Source: Bolinopsis microptera (lineage: Eukaryota; Ctenophora; Tentaculata; Lobata; Bolinopsidae). From it: a DNA stretch of 33,000 nucleotides. The stretch lies in assembly GCF_026151205.1 (NCBI RefSeq), contig NC_087079.1, positions 13,728,945 to 13,761,944 on the forward strand, in the 5' to 3' direction. The position numbers and the translations under genes are program-made. The notes beneath the pieces are model-generated. The model saw only the letters and a list, made by a program, of their open reading frames with translations. It ran no database searches and was not told where the DNA came from. This document shows, piece after piece, positions 1 to 3,000 of this stretch (positions are counted from its first letter, which is position 1; every line of letters begins with the position of its first letter).

Positions 1-3000
1 AAACTTTAGCTAAATACAGACTTGATGAGACTAGCGACAAGAAAGAAGAAATAAAAATGAGTCTGGAAGAAGCTATCAAAATCATTCAAGTATGAAGATA
101 ATTTATGAGGTTACATAATTATAACCTAGTGTGCACTATGCATTATAAAAGATAAAAGATACGATCTATGCTGTTTATCAAAATTTCAGCATTAGCCTTG
201 ATTCATTTAAAATTTCTGATTTAAATCATCCTAGGTACACGAGCGTGCACGACAAGGATGTCTCCGAGCTAAATTCATGAGAGAGATTAGAGCTCAAGAG
301 GAGAGAGAAAAGATGCTATCATTACAAGGAGCCTCAACAATGGACCCAGATGTAGCTTCAACCATCATACAGAAGGTTTGGAAAGGATACTCCCAGAGGA
401 ACAAGACACTGAAACTCAGAGAGGAAGAGCTTATCTTCATTGGCATGCAGCCAAACACTGACACTCAAGTTCACCACAAAGATTCTCCAGTTAGCAAAGT
501 CAACAAAAGAGAGGTAAGAATTGCTCATCTTCTATCGTGGCATTTGCACAGTGAATCTTACAAAATTAAATTCATGATGGAAGATAGTATATTAAACTTT
601 TTACATAAGAAGTGCTCCAATTTGATAATAACAACTAATTTATTGTCAGGAAGAACGTGTGTTGATTCAAGCTCAACACGAAAGAGAGTATCAAGATGCT
701 CTGGTAAACATCAAAGAGAAAATCAGGGAGGCAGAGGGTCCAGATATAAAGGAGAACATGCAGGATCAAATCAGACAATGGTTCATCGAGACCAGGTAAA
801 GTGCAACTTCATCTACAAATTTTCTTTTTAGAAAAGTAGAAAGCACTGCTATTCAACTTTCGATGTGCTGATAAGAATTGCTTTATTTTGGAGTTACTTT
901 AGCCCAAAAATGTTTCAGAGATGCTACCGGAAAGTTCCCTGACTATCCTTCTGATGATGAGGGTGGTTCAGGTGCTATCTTCAAAACAAAAAACGGTGAT
1001 GGTGGTGAAGAAGGAGGTGAGGAAGGGGGAAAGAAGAAAGGCAAGAAAGGAAAAAAGAAGAAGGGCGAGAAGAAGGAAAAGAAAAAGAAAGGAAAAAAGA
1101 AGGGTGGTAAGGATAAGGGGGCTGGTGGTGGCGAAGACGACGACGGGTTTAAGATGGTGCCGTCTATGTTTATACCAGGTATTGAAGAGGCTTCAATGAC
1201 TTACGAGGAGATATGGAAGCAAAGGGATGAGACTGAAAACTTCCAACAGAAGTATGATGCTGAACTGATCAAAGAGCTCAAACGGTCAGTGTGATAATTT
1301 TTCTGAATATCCTGCTTTATTCTCAAAAATTTCAACATTAAAATACACATACTTTTCGACGTGAAAAAAATGTAGAAGTTTTATCTTTTGAAGTGTGTAT
1401 TCTTTGATAGGGGCGAAGTAGAGTCGGAGATAAGAGTTCAGGTCGATGATTTGATGCGACAAGAACTGAAAAACCTGAAAGCTGTATGTAAAACCCTGCC
1501 ATTATTCAATCCAAAACCCACCACATTTCAATCCACAAACACACATATATCGCTCACAGCACAAATTACATAAGTTCATCAAATCATCGCCCCCTTATCG
1601 ATCTTGCACGATGTATAAGTTATCACTTCACCTCTGATTCCAGAGTTGAGATTGAGGATGAAGTGAGATTACTTGTTGATGGTCAAATGAGAGAGGAACT
1701 TAAACTACTGAGAGAAGTATTAACTTAATTCATACTTCACTCAAACATACGACCACGATGATAAGTCAAATGAGATCCTATTATAACCTACATTATTCAT
1801 AACATTTTAATAAACGATTTCCATGCTTTTGATTTATCTTTTTCTACAACTTATTCAATTGTCGTTCAACTTTTTGTCGTCTTGAAAATCTAAAACTCAG
1901 GCTATTGAACGTGACAAAGGTAAAAAAGGAAAGAAGGGAAAGAAATCTGGAAAAAAGAAGGTATCCTATTTTCATACGAATCATATTTCTTAACTTTTAT
2001 TATTATACAGGCATTGCAAAAGGATATGGGTAAAAAAGGTGGCAAAGGCTCTGCAAAAAAGAAGGTATTCTACCGCCAGAGCCACGTGTATTACAAAAAG
2101 TACCGCATCACAGTAAAGCAGAATTTAACAATCATGAACCGCACAGCACGTGACATGACGTCACAGCACGTGCTCCAAAGGGAACCGGTCCCATATTTTA
2201 ATGTTGTTTTAGTGCAGCATTTTACGAAGGGAAAATTTAATTTAATGAGTCTTAAAACTAAATCATGAAACGATAAGTTCAAGCACTTATTCAGCCTGCT
2301 ACAAAAATTTCTTGAGCTTCCCTTGAATAGCAATATAAACAAAAATGGCAAGTGTACTTCTGTGCTAGGGGTTGTGGGCAATTAGGATTTTACTTGGTAT
2401 TGATAGAGGGGAGTAAGCCTAGAATTTAAAATAAAACGTCATGTCCTCATCACATTTTGAAAAAAAATGTATTTTCAACATTATAGTTTGTTTTCAACAA
2501 AATTCCGATTAAAATCTCGACAAAATGTCCGATTTGTGACCATTGTGCCTCGAGTTTAGGGTAAGAAGGGTAAAAAAGGAAAGAAAAGTGGCAAGGGTAA
2601 GAAAGGGAAGAAGGGGAAGAAAGCAAAAGACCTGACTGCTGGAAAGTGAGTTGGTTTAGCTGCATGTAAATATAAAAGGATGTATCCCTACCCAGATGTT
2701 ATATGTTGTACGAAGCCCAACATGATACTGCTAGTCTTTTAATAATCCTCCTGCATTCTACTATCATGTGAATTACTCTTTACACCATTAGAAAGCATAT
2801 AAACGTCAAATATACTCTTTGAAGGGTAGGGATACATTCAACAGCTAATCTGCAGCACGTATCTTAATTTTTCTCTGATTTGCATGCTCAATTGGTAGTT
2901 TTTAGGGTGGTAAGAAGAAGGACAAAAAAGGAGGTAAAAAGGGCAAAAAAGACAAAGATTTGACGCCGGACAGGTAGCAATGATTCTAGTGATCATTTGA

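Follow-up and report, generated by a model that had tools for sequence, protein, structure and literature searches.

Mutually exclusive tandem exons are a well-known kind of alternative exon (PMC9741552, PMC9013439), and in these accounts they are homologous, adjacent exons that are used one at a time, differ by mostly conservative substitutions and encode the same position of the protein; the known cases are annotated, and many have been detected as proteins. Arthropod muscle myosin heavy chain (PMC2257972) and Dscam, with its three variable exon clusters (PMC3364881), are established cases in which exclusive exons of one gene give many isoforms, amounting to thousands for Dscam. For axonemal proteins, a precedent is provided by Drosophila CG17150/DNAH3, whose isoforms differ between chordotonal neurons and sperm (PMC6367277), so that alternative splicing yields cell-type-specific forms of an axonemal protein. 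DNAH3 is, however, a dynein heavy chain and not an N-DRC protein, and the available part of that report does not state that its exons are look-alikes; a table in the same paper gives chordotonal as the only entry for fly DRC11 (CG16789). Tetrahymena has DRC11 in more than one version, but its DRC11A and DRC11B are separate paralogue genes, not alternative exons (PMC10504270).

Here we describe a candidate system of this kind in a window of 33,000 nucleotides of the Bolinopsis microptera genome (264.65 Mb; NC_087079.1, positions 13,728,945 to 13,761,944 of the forward strand). Two look-alike exons, A and B, are probably tandemly duplicated, mutually exclusive exons of a DRC11 gene, lying within a run of three look-alike pairs between exons x3 and F from which one each of A/B and D/E would be spliced in; we give this reading a probability of about 0.72. 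The locus shares with the known tandem exons the homology, adjacency and conservative exchange at one protein position, and with Dscam and myosin heavy chain the prospect of many isoforms from one gene. Known here from genomic sequence, it differs from the annotated cases in lying in an axonemal gene, and from Dscam and myosin heavy chain in that its clusters hold two exons each and three of them lie side by side in about 1.6 kb. We therefore regard it as a known kind of system in an apparently new gene, the clustering of three pairs being the unusual part. An earlier note on this DNA knew of no such report for DRC11, and none was found among the matches listed in the open-access literature, a body of text that excludes most subscription journals and genome annotations. 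A scan of viral contigs with a DRC11 peptide found no relatives.

The assignment of the gene to DRC11 (IQCA1), already made in the earlier note, is supported by comparison with solved structures. Residues 2-394 of the protein obtained by joining exons x1, x2, x3, B, C, E, F and G match solved DRC11 chains, with E values of 7e-111 for 9fqr_Ok (entry name 'IQ motif containing with AAA domain 1'), 7e-109 for 8j07_11 ('Dynein regulatory complex protein 11') and 2e-79 for 8glv_Ea; six solved chains in all match this protein at E <= 0.001. We take 8j07 to be the human, 8glv the Chlamydomonas and 8th8 the Tetrahymena structure. The exons considered here are as follows.

235..513, + strand: DRC11 exon x1, phase 0 to 0, matching solved DRC11 chains
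650..795, + strand: DRC11 exon x2, matching solved chains
919..1284, + strand: DRC11 exon x3, upstream of the alternative block, ending in phase 2, matching solved chains
1411-1483, + strand: exon A, 73 nt, phase 2 in and 0 out, AG/GT; putative canonical helix exon, first alternative
1644-1716, + strand: exon B, 73 nt, phase 2 in and 0 out, AG/GT; putative divergent alternative to A
1901-1960, + strand: exon C, 60 nt, phase 0/0; opens with AIERDK and is lysine-rich thereafter
2011-2064, + strand: exon C2, 54 nt, phase 0/0; resembles C, opens with ALQKDM and is lysine-rich thereafter
2560-2645, + strand: exon D, 86 nt, phase 0 in and 2 out; lysine-rich with KAKDLTAGK at its end; putative alternative to E
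2906-2973, + strand: exon E, 68 nt, phase 0 in and 2 out; lysine-rich with KDKDLTPDR at its end; putative canonical form
3320..3412, + strand: DRC11 exon F, downstream of the alternative block
3596..3693, + strand: DRC11 exon G, matching solved chains, 3′ end read by eye

Further parts of the gene were assigned by eye. A sequence inside x1 was read as an IQ motif, and exon-like stretches that resemble an AAA+ domain were found near 4016-4171, 9630-9854, 10155-10226, 10397-10531 and 10721-10804, in both copies of the gene (the second copy is described below). The last exon of the window copy, near 11454-11620, is lysine-rich, as is x3.

Exons A and B have the coordinates, the common length of 73 nt, the equal phases and the separate AG/GT sites that the earlier note had given them, whereas the peptides printed there were out of register: the correct alignment is gapless from the first residue. 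In this register 12 of 24 residues are identical (BLOSUM62 sum 57), as are 42 of 73 bases. Among 130 open AG-73nt-GT intervals found in 84 kb on both strands and scored against A, only the A and B exons of the two gene copies (4 intervals) exceed a score of 2, B reaching 57; the remaining 126 have a mean of -21 (s.d. 9). Joining A to B places a stop at the second codon of B (the product reads ...NLKAS*), as had been claimed. The companion claim that skipping both exons shifts the frame also holds, and the set C-C2-E without A or B runs into a stop in exon E, but skipping A, B, D and E together restores the frame from x3 to F. A and B are thus adjacent homologous exons of the same phases, and both their double inclusion and their double skipping break the frame, as expected of mutually exclusive exons. 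Frame incompatibility, the selection-like divergence of B and the intactness of both exons in two gene copies together support the genomic signature that had been proposed for the pair.

The two exons differ in their closeness to the solved chains, four of which were compared (the two lowest-scoring of the six were left out). Exon A has 20, 18, 13 and 8 of its 24 residues in common with 9fqr, 8j07, 8glv and 8th8, respectively, and exon B has 12, 11, 10 and 7; we therefore take A to be the canonical exon and B its divergent version. Five positions are invariant across A and the four chains; B keeps three of them (V, D and L) and has V in place of I and L in place of Q at the other two. Of the 31 sites, out of 73, at which A and B differ, 8, 8 and 15 are at codon positions 1, 2 and 3, respectively. 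When 31 random changes were introduced into A in 200,000 trials, a simulation of neutral drift with equal base changes, without indels and without modelling the age of the duplication, the frame stayed open in 35% of trials; 0.09% were open with at least 12 shared residues, and 0.003% (3e-5) were open with a similarity score reaching that of B. By this measure the divergence of B is non-neutral and points to protein-level selection on B.

These comparisons also bear on two other explanations of B. If B were a relic, that is, a duplicated exon no longer spliced in, the gene would make only A-type DRC11, a notion with which several features agree: A lies close to the solved chains, B has lost a glutamine common to A and all four aligned chains, and the donor of B (GAA/gtatta) is weak, with 5 of 11 consensus matches. 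Yet in each of the two gene copies B, for all its divergence, is open, has kept its acceptor and donor and retains conservative residues, whereas 65% of the equally diverged simulated exons lost their frame, and we consider it quite unlikely that B is a relic. The stop created by joining A and B fits instead a poison exon, which would be included after A, end translation and lower the DRC11 level via nonsense-mediated decay while giving no isoform of its own. Such an exon needs no protein-like divergence, but B keeps half of the residues of A and has changed mostly at third positions; moreover, B in place of A restores the frame exactly, and a role as poison exon is accordingly very improbable.

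Two more look-alike pairs, C/C2 and D/E, lie directly downstream of A/B in a lysine-rich linker. The start of exon C aligns to AVNREK/AVDRER of the solved chains; C2 follows after a gap of 50 nt, and a 23-nt repeat, 91% alike, spans the exon ends and donors of C and C2. Among 4994 open phase 0/0 intervals, however, the first six residues of C2 (score 15) have one unrelated tie and another interval at 14, so that by these residues alone C2 is not beyond chance in this comparison, and it stands out only once lysine content is also required. C and C2 together remain in frame, and frame does not make this pair exclusive. D and E, like A and B, are incompatible in frame: when they are joined the frame shifts into a stop, and when both are left out translation ends two residues on. 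The solved chains read KDKDLTVDR or KDKDLTADR at the corresponding place, and E is therefore read as the canonical form. D and E have the motif K-x-K-D-L-T in corresponding positions but encode its D, L and T by different codons, and D-type ends (score 23) rank directly below E's own (49; best 14 of 2858 open phase-compatible intervals). D and E are thus adjacent look-alikes of the same phases, although their similarity is of a weaker, low-complexity sort. Because lysine-rich coding is of low complexity, likeness counts for less among C, C2, D and E than between A and B.

It is a serious possibility, though short of even odds, that only A/B is a true pair, C and C2 being cassettes, either optional or constitutive, and either D or E being unused; this would be compatible with our explanation of A and B. 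The shared 0/0 phase of C and C2, which makes them compatible with each other, the chance-level start of C2 and the capacity of lysine-rich coding to look alike through convergence or slippage all agree with it. The frame incompatibility of D and E argues the other way, as does the alignment of their KDLT at the exon end, where D-type ends come next after E's own.

The combinations that the frame allows were enumerated. The six exons A, B, C, C2, D and E can be combined in 64 ways, of which 20 leave the frame open through F; 16 of these contain exactly one of A and B and one of D and E, and the other 4 lack A, B, D and E. By frame, a full protein that includes the block would therefore need one of A/B and one of D/E. 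Among the 16 isoforms the alternative block would hold 11 to 34 lysines, and the range narrows to 18 to 27 for those 8 that take exactly one of C and C2; use of D instead of E adds 5 lysines, and C and/or C2 adds more. On an extended and speculative reading, which we rather doubt in its full form, DRC11 would be a combinatorially spliced nexin tether, its three adjacent pairs giving up to 16 in-frame isoforms (8 if C and C2 are exclusive too) whose lysine content is coupled to the choice of two helices, and differently charged inter-doublet links would occur in different cilia of one animal.

Under the preferred reading, each transcript would take one member of A/B and one of D/E. Double inclusion of A and B or of D and E, or loss of one pair, would break the frame, and such transcripts would presumably be removed by nonsense-mediated decay. 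For C and C2, joining may be blocked by steric hindrance, since only 50 nt separate them. The resulting DRC11 isoforms would differ in one conserved helix, if the A/B segment is helical as expected, and in the length and charge of the lysine-rich linker before the AAA+ part, with a possible effect on the nexin link and a possible specificity for cell types. Steric exclusion is probably not the main cause for A/B, because the intron between them (160 nt) is not shorter than the three preceding introns (123-136 nt). Competing intron pairing gave no signal in a simple duplex test on this one genome, the duplex energies of three intron pairs falling within the shuffle range (z -1.3, -1.6 and +0.5), and no inverted repeats of at least 20 nt were reported in 1-6000. 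Weak donors are common at regulated exons, and out of 11 consensus places the donors of A, B, C and C2 match 5-6, those of x1, x2, x3 and E 7-9, and those of D and F 6; as F is equally weak and is not alternative here, donor weakness proves little.

The introns of this region vary in base composition. The A-B intron (1484-1643) is C-rich and G-poor (C 31%, G 9%), compared with C 13% and G 14% in the x3-A intron; G is likewise scarce in the B-C (9%) and C-C2 (6%) introns.

An inverted copy of the DRC11 gene lies about 40 kb away (C8:~13.689 Mb) and is 97.5% identical over 4.07 kb of the part with the alternative exons. In window numbering the duplicate spans -7887, which lies upstream of the window, to 11264, and its counterpart is C8:13684243-13699135 (-). 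The match is broken into blocks, with identities of 94.1-99.6% among those of 511 to 4072 nt and lower values for some shorter ones. The upstream half of the protein has at least 10 matches, and those found all lie in the two copies. All six alternative exons are open in the inverted copy and have AG/GT sites. Substitutions between the copies affect 12 of 1392 exon bases and 54 of 2658 intron bases (p 0.003; in this count F and G have ends that are off by one to three bases), and indel columns number 37 in introns and 0 in exons. The six alternative exons carry a single substitution in 414 bases, a synonymous one in B (Fisher p 0.003 against introns), and the other five exons carry 11 in 978 (p 0.041). 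Divided further, A, C and E have 0 in 201 (p 0.019), whereas B, C2 and D have 1 in 213 (p 0.076), which is not significant against introns. The six differences in x1, x2, x3 and B comprise 5 synonymous changes and 1 change of D to E; exon F has a synonymous A to G at the third base of GAA and a T to A at the first base of TTG, giving ATG (L to M); exon G has four differences.

Since intron divergence is only about 2%, the inverted copy has little power for single exons, and the comparison between copies supports protein-level selection for the six exons together, as judged from substitution patterns, but is not significant for the variants alone. Gene conversion could also keep the copies alike, and the two copies may be paralogues or alleles misplaced by the assembler. 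The last exon of the window copy (about 11454-11620) was not found in the examined region of the other copy, which may therefore have another C-terminus.

In published axoneme structures, lysine-rich parts of DRC11 are directed at the neighbouring doublet: at the proximal tip, DRC2, DRC4 and DRC11 together contribute 60 or more lysines to a cluster that faces the next doublet (PMC10266980). The linker of the alternative block may be part of this cluster, although x3 and the last exon are lysine-rich as well. Tetrahymena DRC11 belongs to the proximal lobe, and this lobe seems to contact the stalk of dynein e (PMC10504270). The nexin link restrains doublet sliding and hence the bending of the cilium. 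If the reading of exclusive pairs is true, splicing would swap a helix and the lysine-rich linker of DRC11, and the form of the beat could be tuned per cell type without duplicate genes.

The window also contains sequences resembling mobile elements. An insertion of about 5 kb in a DRC11 intron (about 4468-9512) has terminal inverted repeats of ~395 nt that are 93.9% alike and is flanked by TTAA on both sides, while a lone TTAA marks the empty site in the other gene copy; these features suggest a TTAA-target DNA transposon. Within the insertion lies a long CA/TG-type repeat (about 6470-7170). On the minus strand, at 20336-21742, there is a 468-aa open reading frame that by eye resembles the reverse transcriptase of a non-LTR retrotransposon.
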